Shown here one piece after another: positions 18,001-52,118 of a DNA stretch of 64,000 nucleotides. The notes under the pieces are model-generated. The model was not told where the DNA came from and searched no databases. It saw nothing but the letters and a program-made list of their open reading frames with translations. The position numbers were made by a program, and so were the translations under genes. The first letter of the stretch is position 1; every line of letters starts with the position of its first letter. This stretch comes from Ferrimonas kyonanensis DSM 18153 (GTDB taxonomy: Bacteria; Pseudomonadota; Gammaproteobacteria; Enterobacterales; Shewanellaceae). The stretch is from assembly GCF_000425405.1 (NCBI RefSeq), contig NZ_AUDJ01000015.1:62001-126000 (forward strand), read 5' to 3'.

Positions 18001-19215
18001 ATGAATGCATTCACTCACACTCTGCGCTGGGCGCTGGGGTTGATGCTGGCGTGCCTGATGGCGTGCAGTACGCCATTGGCAGCGGCCGACAATGATCCCG
18101 CCGCCGAGGCGCTGGGCACTTATCAGATTCTGCTGGAGGGGGTACCGGGCACCGGTGGCTTGAGCTACCACATCGCCTTTGACCCCGATGGCAGTGTCTA
18201 CATCGAGAAGAAATTCAATGGCCGTGATGAGGCCGAAACTCACCAGTGGCTGCGTCAGGGCGACGCCATCACCATCTTGCCGCTGCAAGGTGGAGTGATC
18301 ACCGACTTCGACCACGCCAGTCTGACGGTGATCGACAGCGAAAACATCGACGTCAACCTCAACGTCACCGGGGCCAGCCTGGATTTACTGGAAAAGGACG
18401 TCACCTTTACCCTGTTCCGCTGGCATGAGACTCAGGCCAAGTTGCACATTTTGCTGACTCTGGTGATTCTGATTGCGTTGAACGAGTTGTTCCGGTTTGT
18501 GAAATGGAGCGGCTTTGCGTTCTTCGTCGGCCTGTCACTGCTGCTGACCATCTTCGTCTGGCCCTATCAGGGGGTGGCGTACTGGTTTAAGTGGGCCAAG
18601 ATCTATTCGGTGGTGTCGGCCTCGGTGTTCTTCCTGCTGATGCGCTTTACCAAGGTGCATCAATACAGCCTGGCCAAGTTGTTCTGCGTCGGCTTTTTGG
18701 CCATCAACATCGCCGAGGCGGTGGCGCAGGACTTTACCATGGGCTTTACCCCGAACCTGCTTAATGGCGTGGCCGGGGTACTGTCGATTCTGACCTGCTA
18801 TTACGGTTGGAAGGGGATTCGAGCCGACGACAGCCCGCAGAAAGACATGGTGTGGCCGAAGATGACCGCGCTGTGGATCATCGCCTACGACGTGTGGAAT
18901 TTCGCCTATGTGTACCTGAACTTCCCGGCGTCGGCATCGGCGCAGCTGATGGTGATTGTGGCGGCCACCATTCCGGCGCTGTTCATTAAAAAGGGCACTT
19001 GGTTGCAGGCCCGCGCTTACACCTTGGCGGCCTGGTTCATGTTCTATTTTACCTTCACCAACTTCTACGAGCGCAACCTGTGGATCTTCCCCAGGAACGA
19101 CATGCTGACCTACTCAGTGGCGGCGTTGAGCCTGGTGCTTAACATTGCCTGTGTATGGCAGCTGGTGAGCTTCTACCGCGCCCGTCAGGCTAAGCAGAAA
19201 CTGGCCACAGCCTGA
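18001..19215 (+). CDS. Signal-anchored protein with C-terminal DUF5692 membrane domain
   Basis: 404 residues. The N-terminus (LRWALGLMLACLMACSTPLAAA) is a signal peptide with a possible lipobox. Residues ~30-140 form a beta-rich extracytoplasmic domain (GTYQILLEGVPGTGG, GSVYIEKKFNGRDEAETHQW). The remaining ~260 residues have about eight membrane segments and match DUF5692: LNELFRFVKWSGFAFFVG, WFKWAKIYSVVSASVFFLLM, WIIAYDVWNFAYVYLNFP, IPALFIKKGTWLQARAYTLA. The extra N-terminal domain is what distinguishes it from the upstream paralogue. A terminator follows. No biochemical role is known to me. Confidence 0.75.
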   Translation: MNAFTHTLRWALGLMLACLMACSTPLAAADNDPAAEALGTYQILLEGVPGTGGLSYHIAFDPDGSVYIEKKFNGRDEAETHQWLRQGDAITILPLQGGVITDFDHASLTVIDSENIDVNLNVTGASLDLLEKDVTFTLFRWHETQAKLHILLTLVILIALNELFRFVKWSGFAFFVGLSLLLTIFVWPYQGVAYWFKWAKIYSVVSASVFFLLMRFTKVHQYSLAKLFCVGFLAINIAEAVAQDFTMGFTPNLLNGVAGVLSILTCYYGWKGIRADDSPQKDMVWPKMTALWIIAYDVWNFAYVYLNFPASASAQLMVIVAATIPALFIKKGTWLQARAYTLAAWFMFYFTFTNFYERNLWIFPRNDMLTYSVAALSLVLNIACVWQLVSFYRARQAKQKLATA

Positions 19216-19234: not shown

Positions 19235-19262
19235 AAAGGCCGCCATATTGGCGGCCTTTTTT
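19235..19262 (+). terminator. Rho-independent terminator
   Basis: AAAGGCCGCC-ATAT-GGCGGCCTTTTTT: a 10-bp stem, a short loop and a T run at the end of the DUF5692 operon. The mobile-element remnant begins just after it. Confidence 0.88.
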
Positions 19263-19295
19263 ACATTCAACGCGCATAGCACATAGTTATTTTAG

Positions 19296-20327
19296 ATCGA
19301 CCTGGATGGCATCACGTTGTGCACCCTGCGCTCATGGACAAGCAGGCTGGAGACACTGCCGAGGGAAGATGTCTGGGCCTGTGCGCCGATTTGCGAAAAG
19401 GCATTGCAAGTGCTGGCCGCGCTCAATGATGACTACCGCTCGACTCAGGGGGACATTCATCGGTCTCCCCGCTTCAGCTTTGATGCATCTGGTACCGGCG
19501 ACAACATTAACAATCAGTTGTCAGAGACGGACTTAAACAAAGCCAACCTTGCGATGTTGCTCAGCGGTTACTCGAAACACCTTGATATGACTTACGACCT
19601 CGTTGCGATGGATGAGGTATATAAACTGCTTAATCCGGTGGTTCCCGCCCGATACAACCCGATAAAGAAACGGGAGGATAGCACCTTCTACTGGCACTTT
19701 ACTACCCACTTACTGCGGCGTACCTTCGCCCATTTTGTGGTGGGTAATGGGGTGGTGTCACTAGCGGCACTCAAGCATCAGTTCAAGCACATCAGCCTCG
19801 CTATGACGGCTATCTACGCCAGTCACTCTGAGGTGCTTACGCTGATGGGGATAGAAAACCCGGCCAACGTCAAAGAAGCCGTGGAAGATGCCGAAATGGA
19901 AAGCCACAGAGCCTACCTGAAGGACAACCCTGAAGAGCAATCAGGCGGCTATATGAAGCACTTTGAGGGCGACCCCAAGGTGATGACGGACGAACAATTT
20001 GAAGCGCATGTCAAAAGCAGCAAGGGTGCCAACAAATCGACCGGCTATGGCCGATGTTTTGTGGGTGAGAAGTGCAAGATGACCCATCTGTTTGAGCCAT
20101 CCAGTTGCGTCGGGCGTGACTGCGAGAACCTGAACATCAACCAGGCTGAAGCTAGACACTGGCAACAGCGCCATCAACGCCTCGGTGCAAAGTTGCAGCA
20201 GATGAAACAAATGGGCTTTTACAACCGCAACACGCTGGCCCGCGAGCTGACCGACATTCATTCCGCAGAGAGAGTCATGGCAGACCATAACATCGCCTTT
20301 GAGCGGTTTGATTTAGGAGCATTGTGA
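19296..20327 (+). pseudogene. 5'-truncated tyrosine recombinase of a mobile element
   Basis: The frame is open from just after a stop at 19293-19295; no convincing ATG start exists, only a TTG at 19317. The catalytic core of a phage-type integrase is visible: HLLRRTFAHFVVGNG, then LKHQFKHISLAMTAIYASH, which supplies the Arg, His and nucleophilic Tyr. The N-terminal domains and first catalytic Arg are missing. The C-terminal region has a cysteine-rich CFVGEKCKMTH ... SSCVGRDC patch, seen in recombinases of transposon-like elements. It overlaps the next gene by its stop codon, so they were one operon. Probably inactive because the first half is lost. Confidence 0.72.
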
Positions 20328-20725
20328 TGCCAAGTGTAAAGACCGAGCTGGAAAATGCCCTTGAGGCGTTGAAAAAAGAGAAGAAGAAAATCAATCCGTC
20401 TGCGGTAGAAAAACGAGCCGGCGTGGCCAATGGTTCGTTAAAGAACCACTCTGTTCTGCGGGAGATCGTTCTGGCAGAGAAAGCTCGTCAGCAACAGCCA
20501 AATCGTGACCGGGCCCCGGATGCGAAAGGCAAATGCAAGACGGTCGCAAAAGACCGCTTTGACGCCTTGGAGGCGAGGAACAGAAAGCTCAATGCGGAGA
20601 ACAGCCAGTTCAAGGCCGAGATAACAGCGATGGCGGATTCTATTGCACAGCTGACCTGGGAACTGCATCGTTACAAAACCGCGACCAGGAAGGATTCACC
20701 GAATGTGCATAGCATCAAGGGCTAA
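20327..20725 (+). CDS. TnpC-like (DUF6262-type) accessory protein
   Basis: About 132 residues. The N-terminal part, KKKINPSAVEKRAGVANGSLKNH, is a helix-turn-helix of the kind found in small accessory proteins of recombinase trios (TnpC of Tn554-like elements). The C-terminal half is a coiled coil (RFDALEARNRKLNAENSQFKAE, split here only for reading). Translation starts at ATG 20327 after AGGAGCATTGTG, overlapping the recombinase stop. The pairing with a tyrosine recombinase supports the role. The family name is from memory. Confidence 0.65.
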   Translation: MPSVKTELENALEALKKEKKKINPSAVEKRAGVANGSLKNHSVLREIVLAEKARQQQPNRDRAPDAKGKCKTVAKDRFDALEARNRKLNAENSQFKAEITAMADSIAQLTWELHRYKTATRKDSPNVHSIKG

Positions 20726-20781
20726 TCATATTTCAAAAATGACTCATCAAAAATAGTGGGTGACGTTGGGAGGGGATGTAG

Positions 20782-21540
20782 TTAAAGGAAGCAAAAATAC
20801 GATTCAGTGCGGGCCTGTTTAAGGGGGCGGTGATTGTCGAAGCGTTTGTGGTGAAAGGCTATAACCTGCAAGTCCTGGGGAAGAAGCAGTCTGATAATGC
20901 TCTGACTGAGCAGTCAACGGGCTTATAGCGATCCCAAAGTATTCAAAAGCGCTGTCGCAGCCATCAAGGCCGAGACTGTTTTTGAAGCCTTTGCTGCTTC
21001 AAAATTAAGTGGTGCGTATGTAATTAGTGACGGAGACTGCTATCACCCAACGGGTATGCTAGTAATCGAGAGCGTCATTGCAAAGCGATTCAGGCGACTC
21101 GCTGTAGTTCAAGCATGGAGCTGTTTCCATGATGAGGCATATCAAGCTGCCGCTTTTGCGAGCGAATATCCGCTAACTACCAAGTAAGGAGAAGCCGTAT
21201 ACAACGCATTGAGCTTTGGAATATCTGCTGTCTTTGGGGGGAGCAAGTACTGGAAAGACGACCGTGATCAATTCAATCATTAGTGGATTGGAGTACTTTA
21301 GTTACCACATTTATCCAATGGCGTTGGCAGGAAGAGCTGCAAAGAGATTAAGAGAGGCTACAGGTCGAGGTTTAAGTACGATTGCAGCATTTCTGCGAAG
21401 CGAGCCGATCATGTCGGAGAAAACTGCTTTGGTCATCGATGAGGCGGCGATGGTAGATGCAAAGAGGTTGGCTCACAAAATGACGATTATAAATAATAGC
21501 ACACGTTTATCTTGCATGATTTTATTACTAAGGAATAAGT
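20782..21540 (+). pseudogene. Decayed RecD-like superfamily I helicase gene
   Basis: Open frame KEAKIRFSAGLFKGAVIVEAF runs from 20782 to a TAG at 20926. A one-base frame change then gives YSDPKVFKSAVAAIKAE and continues to a TAA at 21185-21187. The same frame continues past that stop with GEAVYNALSFGISAVFGG. In the run of six Gs at 21236-21241 the frame must shift to give the Walker A box GGASTGKTT, then LAGRAAKRLREATGRGLSTI and Walker B LVIDEAAMVD, which are RecD/TraA helicase motifs. Homology ends soon after, where AT-rich DNA begins. A CAA to TAA change and one extra G would explain two of the lesions. No functional product expected. Confidence 0.6.
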
Positions 21541-23298
21541 ATGCCTGGATACATTGATAAATTGCCATTACCGATAAATCAGATACCGCAGGGACTTAAA
21601 GATGTTCTATCTGATGAAAAGGTAGATAATCCGAAGAAAGAAGTCGTAGTAACTCATCGGTACGAGAGAGAACTTTATCAAGATAATCATGAATGCCTTC
21701 AAATGATTATGGCTGTAGTGCCCGAAGAAGATAGTGAAAATCTTAGTATACTCAGAGAGTCTAGCAATGGAGTTGTAGCTTACTCAGTGCCTGATTGTAG
21801 AGTAAAGGGTGGAGCGAGAGAGTACAATTTGTCCGTTTCTGGCAATGGTTACATTGTGGCTTCTTGGGGAGATGGATTACATTACTCATTCTTCTTGGCT
21901 GAGGATGTCTGGATGATCTTGGGGTTGAAGCCTAGGCTGATAGGGGATTCTGGTCAAAAGGTCATTTTTGATAATCCTTCTCTTCCAGATTATGGGGTCG
22001 TACAAGGAGATGTGTCGAGCGAGTACTATTTTGGCAGCAACAAAGATATTAAGTGGACAATGCAGAATGAATACCTGAGAAAATATCTTTGGATGAAAGG
22101 CTGTGTTGGTGCAAGAGCCTTTTACTATGAAAAGTATATACAAAGAACCACTGAGGTTGTTGAATTACTGGCTGGAACTGAACATTATAAATTTCAGGAG
22201 CCGTGGATAGAACTAGATATTGTAGATCAAGGGGATAGAGTGATTATGCAAGTCTGGGGTACAGTGCAAAGTGTTCAGCCAGAACTTTGTGAAGAACTTG
22301 ATATAGATTCGCTGACTTGGCCTGGGCACACTGATCCGATGACTAGAGCAAAAGCTAGTGATATTCGGTTAAGGGAATTTGCCTACATTGATGATTCTTT
22401 TCTAACTAGGTACGAAAAGGATAATTCATTCGATGCGATACCTTATTATGATGGGACATCTTATCGTATAGATCCTAGTTATGGAGGGCAATGGTCATTT
22501 AGGGATTGCATTAGAATTGGAAGAAATATAGTTAGGATACCCTTTTATGAGCTATATCGAGGGATTCCAGATAAGGAAGTGTATCATGTATACGACTACG
22601 CAGTTGATCCAAGTGTAATAGATGCAGAGAAAGAAAAAGAAGAGCATACTGTTTCTAAAACATATCGTTTTCTAGAAGAGTTAATAAAACTAAATGAAAA
22701 TCTCGTGTTACTTGGTCAGGTTGTGGGCGTTGCCTTGTCGGAGTCGGACATTTCAGAGTTTAATCGTCAAGACTTTGAAGCAGAGGGGTTACAGAAGTAT
22801 CCCGTATTGCAAAAGTTATCTCATGTAGCTCGTAGGGATATGCAAGAACATGACTTTTTGTCTAGATGCAAAACTATTAATGAAATTCTGAATAAGATAA
22901 AGGTAGGAAACTTAAAGAAACTACTGGTTGCAATGGGCATAGCCAAGAAAGAAATTAACAATTTTCAGGCATTGAAATTGTTGCAAGGAATTCTAAACTT
23001 CAGCGAAGCTTTACTTGAGTATGGTGAAGATGCATCGGCATTTAGCTATGCTTCAAATTTCTCTGATTTGAATACTAGAAATGAAAAACTTGCTTCATTG
23101 TTCATTAATAATGATCTGCGAAATGCTGAGGCTCACGAAGCAGTTAATAAGTCAATCGAGCACCTGGCAAATATTGGTTTTGATAGTGCAACTCTAAAAT
23201 CTGGATATAGTCAAGCATTAGATTTTGTTTTTGATAGCGTTATCGATAGCTTGAGCTATTTGAACTATAAGTTGAAAGGTGCATTGAGTAACCAATGA
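21541..23298 (+). CDS. Large protein of unknown family with C-terminal HEPN-type motif
   Basis: 585 residues with no signal peptide or membrane segment, starting at an ATG preceded by AAGGAATAAGT. I do not recognise the N-terminal ~370 residues, which are beta-rich and acidic. A mostly helical region follows from about residue 370 (coiled-coil-like near 375-400). Near the C-terminus, NNDLRNAEAHEAVNK carries R527-x4-H532, the catalytic signature of HEPN ribonucleases, in the usual helical setting. Codon use is AT-rich, unlike the flanking core genes, indicating transfer. It is followed after 46 bases by another large gene also ending in an R-x5-H motif. A defence or RNase role is inference. 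Confidence 0.72.
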   Translation: MPGYIDKLPLPINQIPQGLKDVLSDEKVDNPKKEVVVTHRYERELYQDNHECLQMIMAVVPEEDSENLSILRESSNGVVAYSVPDCRVKGGAREYNLSVSGNGYIVASWGDGLHYSFFLAEDVWMILGLKPRLIGDSGQKVIFDNPSLPDYGVVQGDVSSEYYFGSNKDIKWTMQNEYLRKYLWMKGCVGARAFYYEKYIQRTTEVVELLAGTEHYKFQEPWIELDIVDQGDRVIMQVWGTVQSVQPELCEELDIDSLTWPGHTDPMTRAKASDIRLREFAYIDDSFLTRYEKDNSFDAIPYYDGTSYRIDPSYGGQWSFRDCIRIGRNIVRIPFYELYRGIPDKEVYHVYDYAVDPSVIDAEKEKEEHTVSKTYRFLEELIKLNENLVLLGQVVGVALSESDISEFNRQDFEAEGLQKYPVLQKLSHVARRDMQEHDFLSRCKTINEILNKIKVGNLKKLLVAMGIAKKEINNFQALKLLQGILNFSEALLEYGEDASAFSYASNFSDLNTRNEKLASLFINNDLRNAEAHEAVNKSIEHLANIGFDSATLKSGYSQALDFVFDSVIDSLSYLNYKLKGALSNQ

Positions 23299-23344
23299 GC
23301 CTGAAGCAATATGAATCATATAAAAGAAATTGTATTGAAGGAAT

Positions 23345-24919
23345 ATGTCAATGACTATAGTTAGGGCCAAAGGGTTTATAGATTTCGTAGAGGATGAATT
23401 GTTATCTGGAACTTGGATACCGCTATATAAGAATTTGAATGCGGAGGATAAGTCAATAGATGGATCGTTGTATTCTTCTCTAGCTCCGAAGGACGATCGC
23501 TCCTATATGAGTTGCTGTGGCTGGGATCTGTTGTTAGGAGACGGTTCTCCTTCTATAGTTACTTGTGGTGATAAGGTTTGGTATGAACAACATACCTCTA
23601 AGTATATTCCTTTAGTTTATTGTAGGACAAACTTCATTGGTAATAGGCCGAGATATTTTGAAGTATCACAAGAATTAGTCCTTTATCTTCGTCTTTATCA
23701 TGACTTGAAAAACTCGAAGTATATATTGCCAGATATCAATGGTAATGAAATAGAAGTTATTCGATACTGTGATAATTCGTTAGAAATACGGAAGTCTTTC
23801 CTGGATGCTTTTTTGTCAGCTAAGCAAATGGATTTTCTTAGTTATTTTGAATGCACCTTCCATCATAACGAAGACCTAACTTCTTCTAGTAAAATTGAAA
23901 ATGACTTACTGAGATATGACTGTTTTTCATCGAATACTTCATATGTAGATGGATACGATAATATCACGAGGGTGCTGGGTAAGAAGTTGATGCTTTGTGA
24001 GAGCTTAACTGAAGAAAATACTTCTCCTACTGCTTTAGAAGAAGCCTATGAAGAATTCGTTGTAGGAGGTGACTCTCATGAGCCAGTTCTTCATACTTGT
24101 AATCCACGTGAGTTAAATGATTATTTTGGTGCAAACCCTGATGCTCCACACTTTTTAACCCCGATATTCTTTAGTCGGGATGTAATGCAAAGATATTACA
24201 ATTCACCTTCAGAATATGAAGTGTCCGACGGAGCTATCTATAAGAAGGGTTATTGGCATCTTAAGATCGATAATAATCATAGCGATTTCATATGCGTTTT
24301 TCTAGGTGATCTTGGTAGGGATATACCAAATTCAGAGCAAAAGTACTGGAGGTGCTTTAATATTGGCGTGGAAGGTGGTGATATCAGTCAAACTAATTTT
24401 AAGCGAAGTGTGTTGGGGCAGTTCGCTGATCCAGAGAGTCTAGATCTTTTATTTAAATATCGATTCGAATCATTTCAGAAAGCATGGTTTGAGAATTTCG
24501 GTTGGTATTTGTTCCTTCCTCTAGCTCCATCTGACTCACATTGCTTCGATTCTCTGCATCGACTGACAAAGAATGAGACAAAGGAGTTTGATAACCAGAT
24601 ACTTAACTTGGTTAAAATAACAATCGACTCCATTAATGTTAAAAGCATAAAGAGTATCATTACTACAGAATCGAGCGGGTCAATTAAGATTCTTAATGAA
24701 TTTCTAGTATCTCAAGGAAGTGAACTTGACATCTCTCCGCTTCTTGGTGGCGTTCAAGGGCTTCGTTCATCAGGTGTTGCTCACAGGAGAGGCTCTAAGT
24801 ATGAAGGGCAGATTAATAGGTTAGGAATTGATGAAGACGACCTTATTGCTGCCTTTGATGATATTCTTAGCAAGTTTATTTCTTTGCTTGAAGGTTTAAA
24901 AGGGGTTTTGGAAGACTAA
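23345..24919 (+). CDS. Second unknown protein with C-terminal R-x5-H (HEPN-like) motif
   Basis: 524 residues, cytoplasmic. ATG 23345 is listed, but the AAGGA box is better spaced for ATG 23351. A middle block with many aromatic and acidic residues (FFSRDVMQRYYNSPSEYEVSDG, WHLKIDNNHSDFICVFLGDLG) looks like a conserved core, though I cannot name it. The final ~60 residues are helical and contain LRSSGVAHRRGSKYEG with R474 and H480, an HEPN-type spacing. AT-rich like the preceding gene. The pair is probably one operon and one functional unit inside the degraded island. Confidence 0.72.
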   Translation: MSMTIVRAKGFIDFVEDELLSGTWIPLYKNLNAEDKSIDGSLYSSLAPKDDRSYMSCCGWDLLLGDGSPSIVTCGDKVWYEQHTSKYIPLVYCRTNFIGNRPRYFEVSQELVLYLRLYHDLKNSKYILPDINGNEIEVIRYCDNSLEIRKSFLDAFLSAKQMDFLSYFECTFHHNEDLTSSSKIENDLLRYDCFSSNTSYVDGYDNITRVLGKKLMLCESLTEENTSPTALEEAYEEFVVGGDSHEPVLHTCNPRELNDYFGANPDAPHFLTPIFFSRDVMQRYYNSPSEYEVSDGAIYKKGYWHLKIDNNHSDFICVFLGDLGRDIPNSEQKYWRCFNIGVEGGDISQTNFKRSVLGQFADPESLDLLFKYRFESFQKAWFENFGWYLFLPLAPSDSHCFDSLHRLTKNETKEFDNQILNLVKITIDSINVKSIKSIITTESSGSIKILNEFLVSQGSELDISPLLGGVQGLRSSGVAHRRGSKYEGQINRLGIDEDDLIAAFDDILSKFISLLEGLKGVLED

Positions 24920-25452
24920 AGCAAAGTAGAATACTAGACTGGCCCTTGCTGAGAGGGCCAGAAGCACTTGCATATACCAGCTCTGGCCCTCGAATCAATC
25001 ATCAGACTCTCTTGCTGCTTTCCAGATCTCGGATATCCAATCGTGCGGTTTTCCACATCAAGCGGCAAGTCAAGCACGCACCCACCCGGTGCTTGTTTCA
25101 TATGCGGGGGCTTCGGCAGGTTTGTTCTCGATACTGTCCACTGGCTTGCCGCGCTATACAGTCCGCTATGAACTCCTTGCCGGCAGTTCTTACCCACCAA
25201 CAGTCAACGCTAAGAGCACCGTCTGAAGTTAGATGAGTGTCGTTGCGTTACGATCTAACTCTTTACCTTTTCTTAAGAGTCGGATGGACAACAAAAGTAA
25301 CTAAAAATGAGACAAATTGACAAAATGTTAGATAAAAGCCTTGCAGGCCTTACCCTGCAAGGCTTACCTAAAGTTTCGATCTAATTTTTAGTTAGATGTA
25401 CTTTTTTTGTCACGGGATTTAGCAAGGCGTCGAGTCGCGGCGGCGAACTCAA
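24920..25452. other. Non-coding right end of the island
   Basis: No credible gene. A hairpin CTGGCCCT/AGGGCCAG lies at 24939-24961 just after the second unknown gene and could help stop transcription, though it has no T run. GC content rises again after 24960, so this may be debris from the host element. A 12-bp hairpin at 25336-25365 is described separately. Confidence 0.45.
25336..25365. repeat. Perfect 12-bp inverted repeat near the island's right end
   Basis: AAGCCTTGCAGG and CCTGCAAGGCTT flank a six-base loop. It may be a terminator without strong T run, or a recombination/end site of the island, since it lies about 90 bp from the first core gene. Confidence 0.6.
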
Positions 25453-30931: not shown

Positions 30932-31913
30932 ACCGCAGCTGTTGCTGCTGATGTTGTTTCCCCTGATCGTGGTGTCGCCGATGCTGGCGATCTCCTTCGG
31001 CAGTGCCGACATCGCTGCCGCCGACGTCGGACGCGCCGTTGTCAACGCACTGCTCGGCGCCGATGCCACCAACCTGTCTCAACGGATCATTATCGAGTTG
31101 CGGTTGCCGCGGGTGTTGCTGGCGATGCTGTGCGGCGCAGGTCTGGCGGTGTCCGGCTCGGTGCTGCAAAGCGTGACCCGCAACCCGTTAGCCGACCCCT
31201 ACCTGTTTGGCATCTCCGCCGGTTCCACCCTAGGGGCGGTGATCGCCCTGACCACCGGCCTGGCGGGCTTGAGTCTGCCGTTGTGTGCGTTTCTGGGATC
31301 GCTGATCGCCGTGGCGGTGGTGATGGTGATGGCTCGGGACGGCCAGGTCGAGGGCTTGATTCTGGCCGGGGTGGCGATCTCGTTCCTGCTGTCGTCGCTG
31401 GCCAACCTGGTGCTCTATTTCGGCGACAATCAGGCGATTCAGGCGGTGCTGTTCTGGAACATGGGCAGCTTTAGCCGCGCCACCTGGGGCACCTTGTGGA
31501 TCCCCGCAGTGGTAGTGTTGACGGCACTGATGGTGGTGTACCAGTTTCAAAGGCCGTTGCAGGCGCTGATGGCCGGGGATGAGAGTGCCCACACCCAGGG
31601 GGTGGCGGTGGTGCCGCTGCGCCTGGGAATGTTGCTGCTGACCGCACTGATCACCGCCTCGCTGGTGGCGTACTGCGGCGGCATCGGCTTTGTTGGCCTG
31701 ATGGTGCCGCACATCGTGCGACTGCTCATCGGTGCCGCCAGCGGCGCCACCCTGATCGCCACCGCCCTGTTCGGGGCGATTCTGATGGTGTGGGTGGATC
31801 TGTTGTCCCGGCAATTGCTAGGCAACCAGGAGCTGCCGGTCGGGGTGGTGACCGCCATTCTCGGCAGTGCCTTCTTCATCGGAATTCTAATGAAACGTCG
31901 GGGTCGTTCATGA
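30918..31913 (+). CDS. btuC: FecCD-family permease for corrinoid import
   Basis: About 331 residues with roughly ten membrane helices. LRLPRVLLAMLCGAGLAVSG, QSVTRNPLADPYLFGIS, and GFVGLMVPHIVRLL are family signatures. ATG 30918 (MPLLKPQ) is the start; the longer upstream frame overlaps the ATPase gene and is not used. Stop overlaps the next start by four bases (ATGA). Confidence 0.9.
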   Translation: MPLLKPQLLLLMLFPLIVVSPMLAISFGSADIAAADVGRAVVNALLGADATNLSQRIIIELRLPRVLLAMLCGAGLAVSGSVLQSVTRNPLADPYLFGISAGSTLGAVIALTTGLAGLSLPLCAFLGSLIAVAVVMVMARDGQVEGLILAGVAISFLLSSLANLVLYFGDNQAIQAVLFWNMGSFSRATWGTLWIPAVVVLTALMVVYQFQRPLQALMAGDESAHTQGVAVVPLRLGMLLLTALITASLVAYCGGIGFVGLMVPHIVRLLIGAASGATLIATALFGAILMVWVDLLSRQLLGNQELPVGVVTAILGSAFFIGILMKRRGRS

Positions 31914-45814: not shown

Positions 45815-46156
45815 TTAGTAACATTTCCTCCGGTATCGATGAGCCAAATATAGAGTTTTTTCTAGATTTTCATTCAGCCATTCACAACAAAAAACACTCA
45901 AATACAACAAAGAAAGTATTAACCCCATAAACAAGACTAGAAGGGCAATCATTAAATTTAAATTCCCGCCTGTTATCCAAGACATAGCCCAAAGCGGAGT
46001 CATGATTAGAACAGGCCTAGGTCCAGAGCCATAACTAATATCCACTATAACCTCTGAGGGAGACTTTCTCTCATTATTATTACAGTAAATCCATAGAGGT
46101 GCATAAAATACAAAACGAAGAAATAGAGCGATCACTAATTTTATGAATTGTAGCAT
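45815..46156 (-). CDS. Small membrane protein, cassette-type gene
   Basis: 113 residues with two hydrophobic segments (FIKLVIALFLRFVFYAPLWIY and LNLMIALLVLFMGLILSLLYL). AT-rich, no recognisable family. It is the last of the series of minus-strand genes, downstream of repeat element 46207-46275. Confidence 0.5.
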   Translation of the reverse strand: MLQFIKLVIALFLRFVFYAPLWIYCNNNERKSPSEVIVDISYGSGPRPVLIMTPLWAMSWITGGNLNLMIALLVLFMGLILSLLYLSVFCCEWLNENLEKTLYLAHRYRRKCY

Positions 46157-46206
46157 TACTTAATTTACACATAATCGAAGATTTAGTCTTCCTGGTTAAT
46201 CAAAGA

Positions 46207-46275
46207 ACAGAAAGGCGCACACTTTAAGAGGTCTATGTAAGTCAATAACTTATTGTTGAGGGTGCCTTCATTAGT
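46207..46275 (-). repeat. Cassette repeat / attC-like element 1
   Basis: It begins 16 bases after the stop of the gene at 46292-47005. Outer arms GAAGGCAC and GTGCGCCTTTC (minus strand) pair, and the inner TTGACTTACATAGACC corresponds to CTGATTTACTAAGATC of element 3. The arm sequences differ from the other copies but still pair. Confidence 0.5.
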
Positions 46276-46291
46276 CATTGATCAATAGAAC

Positions 46292-47005
46292 TTATGCTGT
46301 TCGGCTTGCTTTGGCACAAAAATATAAGTCAGCCACATAAATGTAAAAATATAGGTAGCCACCACAGAATATCCCTAATGCTAGCAACAAAGCCTCAAAA
46401 AAGCCTGGATTACCTATTGAGCGTAAAGAACCAAAAAATAGAGCTCCTAGCGCCGAATATACAGAATTTTTTTTAACCAATATACTAAGTCGATTGCTCT
46501 CAACGTCTTCGCTCATTCCAAGAGCCCTTAAAACAGGGTTGTTTTTAGTCGCATTGCCATAATGGGCTGATGGATTGAACTTGCACGTCTGCAAAGTAAA
46601 TCGGCCTCTTTTTAAGCATGTTTCAAAATTTGCAGATGGTTCGTAAATCCTAGCAAGAATACCTATTGTTGGTCCAAGAAACGAGAGTAGAAGCACCAAT
46701 GCCAACCACCAGTTACTATTACCCCCTGTTAGCCATATGTCAGACAGAGCAAGTGCCATTGAAATTAATGTAAAGCAGGTTATGATGCTGCGGCAAAGGA
46801 GGTATCTAACATCAAGACTTTTTGAAGTCTTAAAATAAAACCATGTGAGTGATGTTGAAATAATTACAAGAGCGGTTACAATCAGCCACTCTCTTCTGTA
46901 TGTTGAGGAGGATATGAGAGTACTACCTAAAATAAATAGAACAGAAATTCCGTGTAAAAATACAAAGCTCTCAAGTTCTTCTCTTACTATACAGTTGATC
47001 TTCAA
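46292..47005 (-). CDS. Multi-pass membrane protein, cassette-type gene
   Basis: 237 residues with about six hydrophobic stretches (VFLHGISVLFILGSTLI, WLIVTALVIISTSLTWFYF, WWLALVLLLSFLGPTIGIL, and two near the C-terminus). A polar loop with four or five basic residues lies at 135-175. No family recognised. AT-rich; flanked on both sides by the repeat elements. Confidence 0.55.
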   Translation of the reverse strand: MKINCIVREELESFVFLHGISVLFILGSTLISSSTYRREWLIVTALVIISTSLTWFYFKTSKSLDVRYLLCRSIITCFTLISMALALSDIWLTGGNSNWWLALVLLLSFLGPTIGILARIYEPSANFETCLKRGRFTLQTCKFNPSAHYGNATKNNPVLRALGMSEDVESNRLSILVKKNSVYSALGALFFGSLRSIGNPGFFEALLLALGIFCGGYLYFYIYVADLYFCAKASRTA

Positions 47006-47070
47006 TTTTTTTATCCGATAATTAAATAGATAGTCGTCTCCAGCTCGAATACTATCTATACTTCATGTCT

Positions 47071-47120
47071 ACAAAGATGAGTAGCTTACCGATGCTGTTA
47101 GCATGGGTGTCTTGATTGGG
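47071..47120 (-). repeat. Cassette repeat element 2 (shortened copy)
   Basis: Shares ACAAAG, GTAGCTTACCGAT and GGGTGTCTTGATT with elements 3 and 4 but lacks the inner ~25 bases, so it is a deleted copy. A second, weaker relative may occupy 47133-47206, right after the stop of the gene at 47212. Confidence 0.45.
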
Positions 47121-47211
47121 CTTATATTGAGATGCCTTCACTTCTCCTGGAGATGGTCATCGACTCAATAAAGTGGAGAGCAATCAGGGGCAGCCATTAA
47201 GTTCAACCACT

Positions 47212-47628
47212 TCACCTCGTATGAAAGAAAAAAAGAACAATCAAAACGAGGACACCCGGAGACATACCAAGAGCGACAACCATTAGGCCACAACGTGCAC
47301 AAATTTCCTCTTGGTCCATATGTTCGAGACCCGCCAAAATTACTTTTGCAAGCTTAAATTTATCATTTTTAACAAAAATAAAGTACGCCGAAATAGCTCC
47401 AATTGTTAAAAACATAATCAATCTAAAGTCGAAACTTATGGGCAAGAAATAACCAGAAAAGATCTCTAATAAGTGGCAGAGCCCGCTAAGGAAGGCAAAG
47501 ACCATCACTGACATGGCGCTAAAAGGGAAAATGTGACAACCTTCATCTTCACATTTTTTAAGCATATCCGTATACAAGTTCCAATAAGAGAGATATAAAA
47601 AGTTTTTTAGAAATTTAAATTCCATCAT
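47212..47628 (-). CDS. Small membrane protein, cassette-type gene
   Basis: About 138 residues from MMEFKFLKNF. Three hydrophobic segments (FPFSAMSVMVFAFLSGLCHLL, LIMFLTIGAISAYFIFV, GLMVVALGMSPGVLVLIVLFFF) and a CARCG pair. The open frame extends to 47700, but the extra residues come from the cassette junction. Unknown family. Confidence 0.5.
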   Translation of the reverse strand: MMEFKFLKNFLYLSYWNLYTDMLKKCEDEGCHIFPFSAMSVMVFAFLSGLCHLLEIFSGYFLPISFDFRLIMFLTIGAISAYFIFVKNDKFKLAKVILAGLEHMDQEEICARCGLMVVALGMSPGVLVLIVLFFFHTR

Positions 47629-47724
47629 ATTAACTGTTCCACCAATCGTATCGTTACCTGCAAACAGCATCACCACGAAGTGACGGGCAGCGCACTCCAC
47701 ATTGCGGTCTTTCAGGAGCTTGGG

Positions 47725-47763
47725 GTGTAACCCCGCCTTAAGCGGAAAAATAGTTAGTTACAC
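47725..47763. repeat. Short attC-like palindromic site
   Basis: GTGTAAC and GTTACAC are complementary seven-base ends like integron core sites, with an inner palindrome CCGCCTTAAGCGG. At 39 bp it is shorter than usual attC sites. Confidence 0.4.
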
Positions 47764-47780
47764 TTGTTGAGGTACGAAAC

Positions 47781-47842
47781 AAAGCCAACTGTTTTTGTTG
47801 ATCCTGATGATCATGAACCGTTTAAAAGACCTTGTTAGCTTT
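47781..47842 (-). repeat. attC-like recombination site, 62 bp
   Basis: Ends AAAGCCAAC and GTTAGCTTT pair over nine bases with one mismatch, close to the RYYYAAC/GTTRRRY core-site pattern. Inner arms GTTGATC and GATCATGAAC are also complementary in part. It abuts the stop codon of the DUF1851-type gene, as an attC should. Confidence 0.58.
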
Positions 47843-48278
47843 AAGTCCCAACAACTTTTTGTGCAATCTGCCCACTCAAAGACAAGTGAACTTCGATATC
47901 TGTTGGTTCAAGATTACTAAGCTCATATTCACCACCTAACAACCAAGGTTTAGTTAAGCTATATATTTGACCACTAGATAGTCTTTTACCTGATTGGATC
48001 AAATCCCCAATCAATTGAACAGCAAAATATTCAACAACAAATTTTTTATCTGACAGAAGTTCGTTAAACTCTTCAGGCGATTCTGCTACCTGTGAAAATT
48101 CAGCCCCACCAGTATCTAACCACCAAACTTGATCATTTCGTATATGTTGTACAAAGGCATCGCCAGACGCTGACAACAAAACAGGCAAATACTCACCATC
48201 TAATAACCACTCCCAATCACATAATATAGTATTTCTATCAAGGTGACTGAAATTTACAGTTAAATCATTTAAAGTCAT
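47841..48278 (-). CDS. DUF1851/Tdi1-like immunity-type protein
   Basis: 145 residues, soluble. LLSASGDAFVQHIRNDQVWWLDTGGAEF (in parts), SPEEFNELLSD, and LLGGEYELSNLEPTDIEVHLSL fit DUF1851, which includes the C-terminal domain of T6SS immunity protein Tdi1 and is common in mobile cassettes. No toxin partner is adjacent. If it is an immunity protein it is an orphan, protecting against incoming effectors. Confidence 0.65.
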   Translation of the reverse strand: MTLNDLTVNFSHLDRNTILCDWEWLLDGEYLPVLLSASGDAFVQHIRNDQVWWLDTGGAEFSQVAESPEEFNELLSDKKFVVEYFAVQLIGDLIQSGKRLSSGQIYSLTKPWLLGGEYELSNLEPTDIEVHLSLSGQIAQKVVGT

Positions 48279-48327
48279 CTAAATTTCCAGAGAAAGCATT
48301 ACGGTGTCCGAGTTTTTAAACGCCTGA

Positions 48328-49323
48328 TTATAAGCCACATGCATCTTTTTTTGCAGCAGATTTTGCGATATTGGGATTGTGAATTTCAGCACTTTGAAAC
48401 ACCTTACATGACTCTTGCTTTTCACCGTTCCTTAAATAAAGTAACGCTAATTCATACAAACTTCTCATGTTTTTCGGGTTCAACCTCAGAGATTCATCAA
48501 AGTATTTTAAACTTTCGTTTTTATTCCCATTATACCCATGGGCGATAGCCAATAATGAAAAACTATCTGAATCAGAAGGATAGTTTTTTGAATCCAACGT
48601 AGCATGTTTTATAGCTGACATAAGATCGTTTTCATTTAAATATATCTGTGCTAAATTGTAGTTAACTCGTCTAAAATTTGGGTTTTGTTCGTAGACCGCT
48701 AAAAATAACTCCCGCGCTTTTGTGTAGTTTTGCTCGTTCATTAAGCAATAGCCTTTGAAATATAAAGCTTCAACATCTCTATTATTGCTTCTTATCGCTT
48801 CGTCAGCCAACGATTTGACTGCCGGACAGTTTCCACTTTTAACCAACTTTTCAAACTCACTTGGTTCTTGATTACTAGTGGTATTTCGGCTCTCTATTTC
48901 CAGTATTTCTTTCGCCAATTCATCGACTATAGGCATAACATGATCTGTAGTTACCATTGTGATTTGTGGCCAAAATTCAGGCATCCTTTTATTCCATTTT
49001 GCCATTACTGGACTTTTCATAATTTCTGCCAGTTGAAGTAGTTCATCGCCGGAAAAATTTTTCGCGACTATTGCAGCTACCTTTCTTTGATATGAACTTG
49101 AAGACAATAACTTTGATACACGCGCTGATATTACTTCTTTGTGTTTTTCCCAGTGCGGCTTTCGCGTTAAGATCATTTGAGTCATAGCATTAGAGTGTTC
49201 TGCTAAATCCAAAACATCTGAACCATAGAATATAGATCTAGCTAACTCTATTTTTTCCTCTTCTACAACGTCAGCTACCGCAGGTAATCCAAGTAAAGCA
49301 AAGAGAAAAAATAAACTTCTCAT
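48328..49323 (-). CDS. Exported DUF2059-like protein with TPR repeats
   Basis: About 331 residues from ATG 49323: signal peptide MRSLFFLFALLGLPAVA; residues ~20-130 resemble DUF2059 (FSGDELLQLAEIMKSPVMAKW). The C-terminal half contains four or five TPR-like repeats (VEALYFKGYCLMNEQNYTKA, RRVNYNLAQIYLNENDL, SFSLLAIAHGYNGNKNES, MRSLYELALLYLRNGEK). Likely periplasmic. It is separated from the DUF1851 gene by only 49 bases without a clear attC site, so these two may be one cassette. Confidence 0.65.
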   Translation of the reverse strand: MRSLFFLFALLGLPAVADVVEEEKIELARSIFYGSDVLDLAEHSNAMTQMILTRKPHWEKHKEVISARVSKLLSSSSYQRKVAAIVAKNFSGDELLQLAEIMKSPVMAKWNKRMPEFWPQITMVTTDHVMPIVDELAKEILEIESRNTTSNQEPSEFEKLVKSGNCPAVKSLADEAIRSNNRDVEALYFKGYCLMNEQNYTKARELFLAVYEQNPNFRRVNYNLAQIYLNENDLMSAIKHATLDSKNYPSDSDSFSLLAIAHGYNGNKNESLKYFDESLRLNPKNMRSLYELALLYLRNGEKQESCKVFQSAEIHNPNIAKSAAKKDACGL

Positions 49324-49404
49324 AAAATAATGTCCTTTTAATTCGCCAAATTTCAAGTGGCTTATAACAGTGTATTAGTGCGAATTCGTACTAAGCCTGA
49401 AAAA

Positions 49405-49482
49405 GATACAAAGACACCCATCTTTTGATCTTAGTAAATCAGTAGCTTACCGATAAGCATAGCGCGGGTGTATTGTTAATCG
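49405..49482 (-). repeat. Cassette repeat / attC-like element 3
   Basis: It directly follows the stop at 49483. Arms ACAAAGACACCC and GGGTGTATTGTT pair with mismatches; the inner CTTATCGGTAAG is a small hairpin. On the minus strand it opens with GATTAAC, one base off the RYYYAAC core. Confidence 0.55.
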
Positions 49483-49860
49483 CTATTGCAAGGCCGAAGT
49501 TTGATTTTCTATACACAGGAGCTCTCCGATACAGAAAAGGGTGGTAGATAAAATCATTGTTCCTAGGTTTCCAGAAAAATATAGTACAAGCGCGCCAACG
49601 GCAATCGCATAAGGAACTCTTGAAGCATTTCTATTTTCTGGCTGCACAGGATTAATAAACCCGATAAATTGTGTCTTAAAATTCAGCTTGAATAAGCTTG
49701 ATGAAATGGCAATTAGTATTGTCATAAACGAAGTCAAGTAAATTGCAGCAGCAATCTCAAGATTTGATGCAACGGCAGGTACACTGTTAATAAGGTCGAA
49801 TCCAAAACCAGCAATAATTGAATAAATTATTAGCGTTGCATATTTTTGTTTTTTTGTCAT
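49483..49860 (-). CDS. Small membrane protein, cassette-type gene
   Basis: 125 residues with three to four hydrophobic segments (ATLIIYSIIAGFGFDLI, IAAAIYLTSFMTILIAISSSLF, AIAVGALVLYFSGNLGTMIL). Family unknown. AT-rich; the repeat element abuts its stop codon. Confidence 0.5.
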   Translation of the reverse strand: MTKKQKYATLIIYSIIAGFGFDLINSVPAVASNLEIAAAIYLTSFMTILIAISSSLFKLNFKTQFIGFINPVQPENRNASRVPYAIAVGALVLYFSGNLGTMILSTTLFCIGELLCIENQTSALQ

Positions 49861-50039
49861 TCATATCCCTTAACATTATTAGTGGTTCTAACTTCTGGCT
49901 ATAGAAATACTCACTTTCTAATTGCTGTAAATTAGTGAATTACTGATACAGTTGTCATAGTTATCCCGTTAATCATCAGAAACTCTTGATGCAACATTAA
50001 GGTCATTGTCTTTTCCAGAAAGCGGGTTACCTTCATAAC

Positions 50040-50648
50040 CTATTTGATTGATTTGTTAGACTTTACGAACGTCTCAAATCGATTTTTAATCTCTTTAGTG
50101 ACTTTAATGCTATCAGATGAGTATTTAAAATCTGTTTGACATATAAACTCAACCACCCATACGTCTTTGTGATCATCTAAAACAACATTAGTGGCTAGAC
50201 AATCTCTAATTTGTTGAGCATTAAGCTGTGATCTACTTGATGCTCTATCAAGCCATCTCTGGCTAATTATCTGGCTTTGGAACTGTCTCAGCAGTTCATT
50301 GACTCCATCAAGTGAAAAATTATGTATATCAGATTTTGATATTTCAACCTTTTGAGGAAATGCTACAGAAAAATGAAAATACTCTTTAAGATCATATCCT
50401 AACTTTCCAGAGATAAAGAAAATAAAATATACTACACAAATGGAAGTGATGGCTCCGTCAAAAACCTTCCTGACTAACGACTTATTCTTACTATTTTGGG
50501 GCTTGTTATCAACTCTATTTTTTGTTGACTTTTTCTTATTATTTTCAGAGATAGAGTTTATCTTTGTGCAAGTTGTGCACTTTACTTCATTACTATGTAT
50601 TGCAAATGGTAATGGTGCCCCACAATTAAAGCAGTTATTTTCATGCAT
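50040..50648 (-). CDS. Zinc-ribbon membrane protein, cassette-type gene
   Basis: 202 residues. N-terminal zinc ribbon with CFNCG (residues 6-10) and CTTC spaced for four-cysteine zinc binding, a basic Asn/Lys-rich linker, one membrane helix (ITSICVVYFIFFISGKLGY), then a soluble C-terminal domain with two cysteines (RDCLATN, EFICQTD). No named family. Its 3' side lacks a clear copy of the repeat. Confidence 0.55.
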   Translation of the reverse strand: MHENNCFNCGAPLPFAIHSNEVKCTTCTKINSISENNKKKSTKNRVDNKPQNSKNKSLVRKVFDGAITSICVVYFIFFISGKLGYDLKEYFHFSVAFPQKVEISKSDIHNFSLDGVNELLRQFQSQIISQRWLDRASSRSQLNAQQIRDCLATNVVLDDHKDVWVVEFICQTDFKYSSDSIKVTKEIKNRFETFVKSNKSIK

Positions 50649-50731
50649 TGTTTATTTTCATCCGTTTGGCTTCGCTGATATTTAATTAAAGGCTACGGAG
50701 ATACCCATCTTATGAAGGATTTACAAGATTT

Positions 50732-50801
50732 ACAAAGACACCCATCTTATGGTCTTTGTAAATCAGTAGTTTGCCAGTTGGCGTGTGTGTCTTGTTAATC
50801 G
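50732..50801 (-). repeat. Cassette repeat / attC-like element 4
   Basis: Located 16 bases from the stop at 50817. Outer arms GATTTACAAAGACAC and GTGTCTTGTTAATC are almost fully complementary, and the inner part has GCCAACTGGC. A partial tandem copy of its left end (ATACCCATCTTATG) precedes it at 50701-50714. Confidence 0.58.
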
Positions 50802-50816
50802 GTATCGAGTAACCAT

Positions 50817-51074
50817 CTAATCGATCTTTTCTTTGCAGTTCCAACAACGCTCGGAGGGCAAAGAGTAGCTATACAATCCTTTCATGACCTGATTTTTTTT
50901 ACACCTAGGGCAGAAATAGTTGAATATCATTATGAATATATAAATTCCGTTGCAGAAACCGACTATCCAAAGCAGAGTATTTAAACTTTCTAATAGATGT
51001 GGTGCAATATTGAATAAAACTGTCAGAGCTACCTGAAAAATTAATGCGAACCTGAATTTCTGGTAACGTCTCAT
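50817..51074 (-). CDS. Small membrane protein with zinc ribbon, cassette-type gene
   Basis: About 85 residues from MRRYQKFRFALIF (the frame is open to 51128 but that end overlaps a repeat element). Two hydrophobic segments, then CPRCKKNQ ... CWNCKEKID, a C-terminal four-cysteine zinc ribbon. Unknown function. Confidence 0.5.
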   Translation of the reverse strand: MRRYQKFRFALIFQVALTVLFNIAPHLLESLNTLLWIVGFCNGIYIFIMIFNYFCPRCKKNQVMKGLYSYSLPSERCWNCKEKID

Positions 51075-51115
51075 AACTATAATACCTTTAGATCTGTATT
51101 TTGTGGTTAATGGAT

Positions 51116-51180
51116 ATAGAGACACCAATATTGTGGTCTTTGTGAATCAGTGGCTTACTGATAAGGTTGGTGTGAGTTTT
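51116..51180 (-). repeat. Cassette repeat / attC-like element 5
   Basis: It begins at the stop of the gene at 51180. Arms ACACCAA and TTGGTGT are exactly complementary although different from the arms of elements 1, 3 and 4; CTGATTCACAAAGACC in the middle is conserved. Confidence 0.55.
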
Positions 51181-51464
51181 TAATAACTGTTTGTTTCGGT
51201 TAAAGAAACCCTGTATTTACCATATGATTCGTTGAGGCTCGAGCTAATGACTAAAATCGCAATGGGTATTACTGCTATTGCAGATGAGATTGAACCTATT
51301 AGATTTGCTAAATTATCGTTTCCACCACTTACAATCGTACCAATCATTGCGCCAGCTATGCCACCAACAAATGAAAATGGGAGGCTAAATAAAATCGTTT
51401 TCCAAGTGATGTTCCACCAAATACGGGTTGCGATTTTGAAAGAGGGTTTTATTTCATGATCCAT
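51180..51464 (-). CDS. Small two-helix membrane protein, cassette-type gene
   Basis: 94 residues: KTILFSLPFSFVGGIAGAMIGTIV and LIGSISSAIAVIPIAILVISSSL are membrane helices rich in glycine and alanine. It starts 24 bases after the stop of the exported protein gene at 51489, so the two may share a cassette. Confidence 0.5.
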   Translation of the reverse strand: MDHEIKPSFKIATRIWWNITWKTILFSLPFSFVGGIAGAMIGTIVSGGNDNLANLIGSISSAIAVIPIAILVISSSLNESYGKYRVSLTETNSY

Positions 51465-51488
51465 TATTTCTATCCTTGTTAAATTAAT

Positions 51489-51941
51489 TTACGGTACCAA
51501 CTCAAACAGTTTGCTCTCTTCATAACCAAAAGCAAAATGATAGAAGGACAGTCCAAATCTATATGTTTCTTCTAAGTTTCCGCCAAGAATAACTCTGTAA
51601 ACAGGTGCTGTTGAAGTTGAGGTGTATTGTGGTTGGTTCCCATAGGTTGTTTGTGAAACATGCAAACCATTTATAGACGCCCATTCCTTAAACTTCTCAG
51701 CAACGTGTTTCTGTGGTTCGACCATCACTTCGAATTCTAGAGAATAAATTCCATTTTCGAAAACAAAATATACACAATCCACACCGTTACTTGTAAGGCC
51801 AAAAAATTCGTATGGCATTTGGCCTAAACTGAGTTTTTTAAGTACCGGTTTAGTATCTTGATAGGATACGAAATTAGATGTGTCAGCATGAGAAGGAGCG
51901 AAACTTAAAAAACTCATGATTAATGCTAGAAATTTCTTCAT
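51489..51941 (-). CDS. Small exported protein, first gene of the cassette array
   Basis: About 150 residues from MKKFLALIMSFLSFAPSHA, a signal peptide. The mature part has one cysteine pair candidate (VDCVYF) and no recognised family. The start lies 14 bases inside a perfect GTTRRRY core site (GTTAAGT, minus strand, 51955-51961), the position expected for the 5' end of an integron cassette. Confidence 0.58.
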   Translation of the reverse strand: MKKFLALIMSFLSFAPSHADTSNFVSYQDTKPVLKKLSLGQMPYEFFGLTSNGVDCVYFVFENGIYSLEFEVMVEPQKHVAEKFKEWASINGLHVSQTTYGNQPQYTSTSTAPVYRVILGGNLEETYRFGLSFYHFAFGYEESKLFELVP

Positions 51942-51954
51942 AACTTCATCTACC

Positions 51955-52118
51955 ACTTAACAACCTATAGTGCGGCCAATGTGAGGTCTTTCCTGCCAAG
52001 GATCCTTGTCGCTTATCTTGGACGTGCAGAGGGCCCGGCCTGTCGCTAGTGTTTTTCTTATGAAAACCAAAGCTGCCTCTTTGCCTTCAGGTCAACAATC
52101 TCGAACAACCGGTTAGGC
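51955..52118 (-). repeat. attC-like site with consensus core sequences
   Basis: On the minus strand it starts with GCCTAAC (52112-52118, perfect RYYYAAC) and ends with GTTAAGT (51955-51961, perfect GTTRRRY). The 164-bp length is longer than most attC sites. It marks the upstream boundary of the first cassette gene. Confidence 0.5.

Follow-up and report, generated by a model that had tools for sequence, protein, structure and literature searches.

What do the two adjacent, AT-rich genes at 21,541–24,919 of this stretch of Ferrimonas kyonanensis DNA encode, and do they belong together? All positions below are those of the whole 64,000-nucleotide stretch, which we will refer to as the window. 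From its letters alone, an earlier note had suggested that the products each end in an HEPN-type motif and form a paired anti-phage system on mobile DNA. The open reading frames (ORFs) have the lengths and coordinates that it gave:

21541..23298, + strand: P0001, 585 aa; mixed alpha/beta N-terminal part and helical HEPN-like C-terminal part with R527-x4-H532
23345..24919, + strand: P0002, 524 aa; remote homologue of P0001 with the same layout and R474-x5-H480

The genes are separated by 46 bases on the same strand, and an in-frame ATG at 23351, behind AAGGAA (23338–23343), is a better-placed start for P0002. The motif residues stand where the note had placed them (R-NAEA-H and R-SSGVA-H) and its composition counts are correct (20 of 60 G+C at 22621–22680, 39 of 60 at 31261–31320); over their full length the two genes have a G+C content of 0.383 and 0.374, against 0.571 and 0.576 on either side of the insert described below. 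Both ORFs run uninterrupted across the full length of their families, while the adjacent recombinase and RecD genes are broken. On balance we think it probable that both proteins are single-protein abortive-infection ribonucleases (RNases), predicted to consist of an N-terminal control part and an HEPN-type C-terminal domain.

The bare motif does not set these proteins apart. A shuffled protein of either composition would hold about 1.5 R-x4-6-H sites, the chance that one falls within the last 130 residues is 0.28–0.29 (2000 shuffles), and P0001 itself holds three further sites beyond R527/H532; what lifts the motif above chance is its conservation within both families. For the P0002 family (family 2), 78 ORFs (77 matches and P0002) were collected and seven pieces of less than 380 aa set aside. 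Across the remaining 71 rows, R474 is R in 69 with a gap in two, that is in 69 of the 69 rows reaching the site, and H480 is H in 68 of these 69, the other being an A in a truncated ORF (L115), again with two gaps. The pair is likewise kept in 10 of 10 rows of a first, smaller alignment. An alignment of 62 sequences (A7: P0002 and 61 ORFs of at least 500 aa, excluding L101, L059 and anything shorter) has only six invariant columns, P268, F276, V280, W304, R474 and H480, and in 60 C-terminal fragments of the family R and H are the sole invariant positions. Their spacing across the rows is mostly x5, sometimes x4. In the P0001 family (family 1), R527/H532 are kept in 13 of 13 rows (P0001 and 12 relatives, some of them near-identical). 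An alignment that takes in three alphaproteobacterial relatives (22–25% identity), but not a frameshifted one (L017), keeps both residues in 6 of 6 rows. The R and H are thus conserved in both families, as a shared feature of the two proteins, although these families diverge to 17–63% identity to the window proteins. Constraint on the coding sequence is evident from synonymous differences (pS) of 0.37 and 0.60 against nonsynonymous differences (pN) of 0.07 and 0.07 in the locus pairs L120/L122 and L009/L054 respectively.

BLASTP finds no match between P0001 and P0002, and a profile built from a narrow P0001 alignment does not reach P0002 either (P 0.026, probability 1.9%); the comparison became significant only after distant relatives had been added. 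With 18 P0001-type and 72 P0002-type sequences, hhalign gives a probability of 97 and an E-value of 8.1e-11 over 461 columns and aligns R527/H532 with R474/H480, while control profiles (two reversed and ten column-shuffled) give 0.30–0.74. Comparison by halves, in which as throughout the hhalign E-values apply to single comparisons, yields 3.6e-6 for the N-terminal and 1.8e-7 for the C-terminal parts, and 0.74 and 0.61 for the cross pairs. To judge from these profiles, P0001 and P0002 are remote homologues across both halves and members of one superfamily.

The AlphaFold2 model of P0002 has a mean predicted local distance difference test score (pLDDT) of 93.1 and a predicted template modelling score (pTM) of 0.82, and that of P0001 a mean pLDDT of 77.7 and a pTM of 0.54, with values below 50 at 72–101, 110–114, 162–166 and 544–546. 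The C-terminal third is helical in both. DSSP places R474 in a helix (464–477) and H480 in the loop after it, and similarly R527 in a helix (515–531) and H532 in the following loop. According to the published description, HEPN domains carry Rx4-6H at the end of a C-terminal helix and the start of the next loop (PMC3710099). In the models the placement of the R/H pair would therefore correspond to the published HEPN active-site position.

A plausible mode of action is as follows. Each protein would begin with about 360 residues in which strands and helices are mixed, followed by a helical HEPN-type domain, which the N-terminal part would hold silent. Sensing of a phage component, or of the loss of a host function, by the N-terminal part may then release the HEPN-like part, which, probably as a dimer, would cut RNA by means of the R/H pair, and this cutting would halt growth and so bring about abortive infection.

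The two genes lie within an insert, whose remaining parts are:

19263..25400, no strand assigned: inserted element of 6.1 kb, a remnant of a strand-biased circularizing integrative element (SE), delimited by BLASTN against a same-genus genome (G401) and by its end sequences
19317..20327, + strand: P0003, C-terminal part of an SE-type recombinase (IntB) with the 5' part missing, matched to a Vibrio furnissii integrase
20324..20725, + strand: P0004, srap-like fourth SE core gene, 61% identical to the gene 3' of the second Vibrio furnissii integrase
21216..21557, + strand: P0005, RecD/AAA_30 helicase fragment (Pfam AAA_19 5.8e-15, AAA_30 1.4e-14)

The match to G401 (L033) breaks off at 19262 and restarts at 25401 at a single point in the relative, so that 19263–25400 is absent there and the target site retained. 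At three further loci (L034–L036) matches to both sides of the insert are also near each other; a fourth (L037) matched the left side only. The insert sits directly behind a terminator-like hairpin, recognised by eye, 3' of the gene at 18001–19215. Its ends read ACAT.../...ATGT(A), with TTAGATCGA and TCGATCTAA further inward, and form imperfect inverted repeats; the short repeats ACAT/ATGT adjoin T tracts, and the 6-bp spacer expected of an SE is left undefined because it is obscured by the T run. P0003 is 76% identical to residues 295–634 of the second integrase (634 aa) of a Vibrio furnissii plasmid element, P0004 has only sub-cutoff matches to VPA1267_fam and DUF6262, and P0005 covers only positions 338–438 of the 713 of the RecD2 model. 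The recombinase and helicase debris that the earlier note had seen beside the genes is therefore real.

SEs have the core order intA-tfp-intB-srap, and the second gene of one of them, SE-6945, is WP_176703888.1, as given in the published SE account (PMC10214605). The same protein is the second of four genes (integrase, hypothetical protein, integrase, small protein) on the Vibrio alfacsensis plasmid pSEA2, whose gene order is, as we read it, the SE core order. The insert resembles the SEs of that account (PMC10214605) in the C-terminal part of IntB, the srap-like gene and the inverted-repeat ends beside a T tract. Unlike a complete SE it has only the 3' part of intB and the srap-like gene: tblastn (E 1e-3) finds no match in the window to the first integrase, the second gene or residues 1–287 of the second integrase of the Vibrio furnissii element. 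By these likenesses the insert is an SE remnant that carries two intact cargo genes beside a RecD fragment, and, as intA, tfp and the 5' part of intB were not found, probably one that is not mobile by itself. A Gamma-Mobile-Trio was considered as the carrier in the window and rejected, as the recombinase has its match in an SE-type integrase and none among GmtY models.

The supposed setting in mobile and defence DNA is borne out for the window genes, which are mobile cargo, and for some relatives, which adjoin defence genes. The examined flanks of 8 of 74 family-2 loci hold hsd-type genes, found by clustering and named by eye, in agreement with type I matches that PADLOC gives for the nearest genes. 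At three loci (L064, L067, L074) the family-2 gene overlaps the end of an hsdS-type gene by 4 bases; elsewhere it abuts a type ISP restriction-modification gene (L093), overlaps a Swt1-HEPN gene (L087), or starts 6 bases behind a PDC-M46B/LmuB-like ATPase whose PDC-M46B match is nearly full length (E 6.6e-134) and whose LmuB match is weak (L113). One plasmid relative (L009) lies downstream of gmtY, a VPA1269-family gene and gmtX, which constitute a Gamma-Mobile-Trio, and another (L015) has SAVED, nucleotidyltransferase, ThiF and Mov34 genes of CBASS type nearby. A DUF4238 gene adjoins the P0002 relatives of L012 and L016, which lie on plasmids of Rhodococcus and Streptomyces. At five loci (L051, L055, L058, L059, L092) a related gene lies 26–47 bases from the P0002 relative; neither Pfam nor PADLOC gave a match to its copy in L059 at the cut-offs applied, and in this branch the common adjacent gene may be a partner.

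Within the phylum, 6 of 398 genomes (own genome included) hold a relative of P0002; others occur in 11 plasmid records, at 71 loci of the genome collection and at three viral-contig loci. Estimated from record names, family 2 spans roughly 13 bacterial phyla, including Pseudomonadota, Cyanobacteriota, Actinomycetota, Planctomycetota, Chloroflexota, Bacillota, Patescibacteria and Nitrospirota; a member on one 3.3-kb contig of a Methanosaeta metagenome-assembled genome may be a contamination. Within the class, 4 of 369 genomes (own included) hold a relative of P0001, G727 having the only other full-length match; further relatives occur in eight plasmid records and at 12 viral-contig loci. Phage records gave no match to either protein (E 1e-3), and a scan of viral sequences with the alphaproteobacterial subfamily found no relative. 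The twelve family-1 sequences match neither Pfam (E 0.1) nor PHROG (E 0.001), the Pfam match of P0002 to Casein_kappa stands at E 0.26, and in PADLOC-DB 2.0.0 none of 62 family-2 sequences matches a system model (E 0.001) and P0001 and P0002 have no match even at E 1. As far as sequence can tell, none of the libraries searched has a name for this superfamily, whose effector would be of a known kind, and an earlier description may exist in the literature. Two divergent P0002 relatives (L113, L116) were also seen, and at L101 (8816–11629) a relative forms part of an ORF of 937 residues, of which about 390 are additional at the N-terminus and match no Pfam or PADLOC family.

Several results weigh against the RNase proposal. 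Foldseek with the full-length models finds no match in the PDB at E 0.001, and no HEPN chain is among the best 50 of 203 (P0002) and 515 (P0001) PDB matches; nor did the viral library or PDB sequence searches return one. There is no convincing Pfam match in the 62 family-2 sequences (E 0.01; two stray single-member matches), and no HEPN family among 25 of the 39 families matched by the 60 C-terminal fragments at E ≤10. The C-terminal parts score P 0.089–0.42 against profiles of RiboL-PSP HEPN, DUF4145 and Abi_C, the latter two of which we take to be HEPN-type, where reversed profiles score 0.03–0.64 and the reversed Abi_C control (0.03) outscores its forward pair; the alignments to RiboL-PSP, which are short, bring the R..H motifs into register. 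Known families compared in the same manner were found in one case (Abi_C with DUF4145, 0.0019), borderline in another (DUF4145 with RiboL-PSP, 0.028) and missed in the third (Abi_C with RiboL-PSP, 0.23), PF18739 (HEPN_Apea), present in one of 130 genomes, not being used as a control family. As one of three known pairs was found, the power of this test is limited but not zero, and the C-terminal parts of P0001 and P0002 fail it. That power counts against the proposal, and so does the low model confidence of the region that holds the P0001 motif (mean pLDDT 63 and 52 for blocks 521–530 and 531–540). Most family-2 loci, moreover, have no recognised defence neighbour, and PADLOC matches differ weakly between the 136 nearest genes and 87 genes at least 6 kb off (4/136 against 1/87 for the commonest type I methylase model, 5/136 against 2/87 for mad2), two unequal sets that rest on crude ORF calls. 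The integrase-, UmuC-, Dam- and tail-like genes seen by eye around family-1 genes on viral contigs (10 of 12 loci) owe their viral setting in part to the collection searched. Of the suggestion that both proteins end in an HEPN-type domain, the helical C-termini, the conserved R/H pair and its HEPN-like placement in the models therefore stand, while neither an HEPN fold nor an HEPN family was found, including in the HHpred-style profile and Pfam comparisons that the earlier note had proposed.

These negatives are what would be seen if the R/H pair were conserved for structure or for nucleotide or RNA binding, the C-terminal bundle being a non-catalytic dimerisation or regulatory domain, and P268, F276, V280 and W304 are as invariant as R474/H480. 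Against this, R and H are the only invariant residues of the C-terminal fragments despite the change in spacing; both are polar, and in the P0002 model both occupy the active-site position that the HEPN description gives (PMC3710099). We regard the non-catalytic reading as doubtful, albeit with a real chance of being correct. Another view, which we hold to be rather unlikely, is that the superfamily consists of immune receptors whose N-terminal domain directly recognises a phage protein and switches on the fused HEPN-type RNase, the tandem then providing two specificities. The recognised protein would perhaps be a packaging protein, because both models share a Foldseek match of 189–208 columns to Avs3 bound to phage terminase (PDB 8dgc). 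This match ranks 1–2 for P0002 (probability 1.00, E 0.013–0.021) and 4–5 for P0001 (probability 0.95–0.97, E 0.073–0.081), there behind low-probability matches; it is weak, with E 0.013–0.081, a query-normalised template modelling score of 0.18–0.21 and a root-mean-square deviation of 5.9–11.9. The P0002 profile has no sequence match to Avs3 (8dgc), and an Avs4 sequence gave only partial, weak matches, none past the cut-off.

The genes may instead serve the mobile element, by stabilising it or by excluding competing elements, rather than phage defence. Both are SE cargo in the window, and relatives lie behind a Gamma-Mobile-Trio, on plasmids and in viral contigs; however, the carriers are of several kinds and hsd-type operons surround some relatives. 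We think this quite unlikely, while noting that it overlaps with a role in defence, because mobile elements often carry defence genes. Finally, the two genes could form one two-component system, either toxin and inhibitor or an obligate heterodimer, as their common strand, close spacing and remote homology might suggest and as the earlier note had assumed in treating them as a pair. This assumption finds no support: no P0001 relative is found (profile A6) in any of 50 genomes with a P0002 relative, which represent 50 of the 71 genome-collection loci, the examined flanks of family-2 loci contain no P0001-type ORF (E 1e-4), and G727 has no P0002-type gene. A two-component system is accordingly very unlikely in our estimation, and, since co-occurrence was not found, the most fitting reading of P0001 and P0002 is as independent cargo genes, remotely homologous to each other, that travel together.

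As candidate abortive-infection RNases, the two proteins can be set beside several known systems. ApeA has its own N-terminal domain followed by an HEPN-like part. For AbiJ the published HEPN survey gives several novel N-terminal domains (PMC3710099). Such one-protein families share with ours the distinct N-terminal domain ahead of an HEPN-like part, but differ in that the 62 family-2 members lack a convincing match in Pfam and a match in PADLOC at the thresholds given above; ApeA is set apart by the failure of the Pfam model HEPN_Apea to match here. The CBS-HEPN system DS-11 of the DefensePredictor paper, whose HEPN catalytic residues are needed for defence, is alike by description in being one protein with a regulatory domain and an HEPN or HEPN-like part (PMC13092281), but has a CBS domain, which Pfam did not match in either family. 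PrrC, an anticodon nuclease, is a second-line defence embedded in the hsdMSR locus according to the same HEPN survey (PMC3710099). It has the HEPN-type motif in common with our proteins, and three P0002 relatives overlap an hsdS-type gene, but no NTPase domain was matched here in Pfam, and P0001, P0002 and most relatives lie outside restriction loci. Only the relatives that sit in hsd loci could plausibly act as a fallback to restriction in the way that PrrC does.

A superfamily that extends over about 13 bacterial phyla, whose members scanned have no Pfam or PADLOC name and which has a site of two unvarying residues, would offer readily testable candidates for anti-phage RNases; it ties together the cargo of an SE, that of a Gamma-Mobile-Trio, restriction operons and viral contigs.

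The window also contains a second AT-rich island at 45900–52100 (G+C 0.34–0.39 in 1-kb steps) with minus-strand ORFs, several of which appear by eye to be membrane-protein-like and one (48328–49356) TPR-like.

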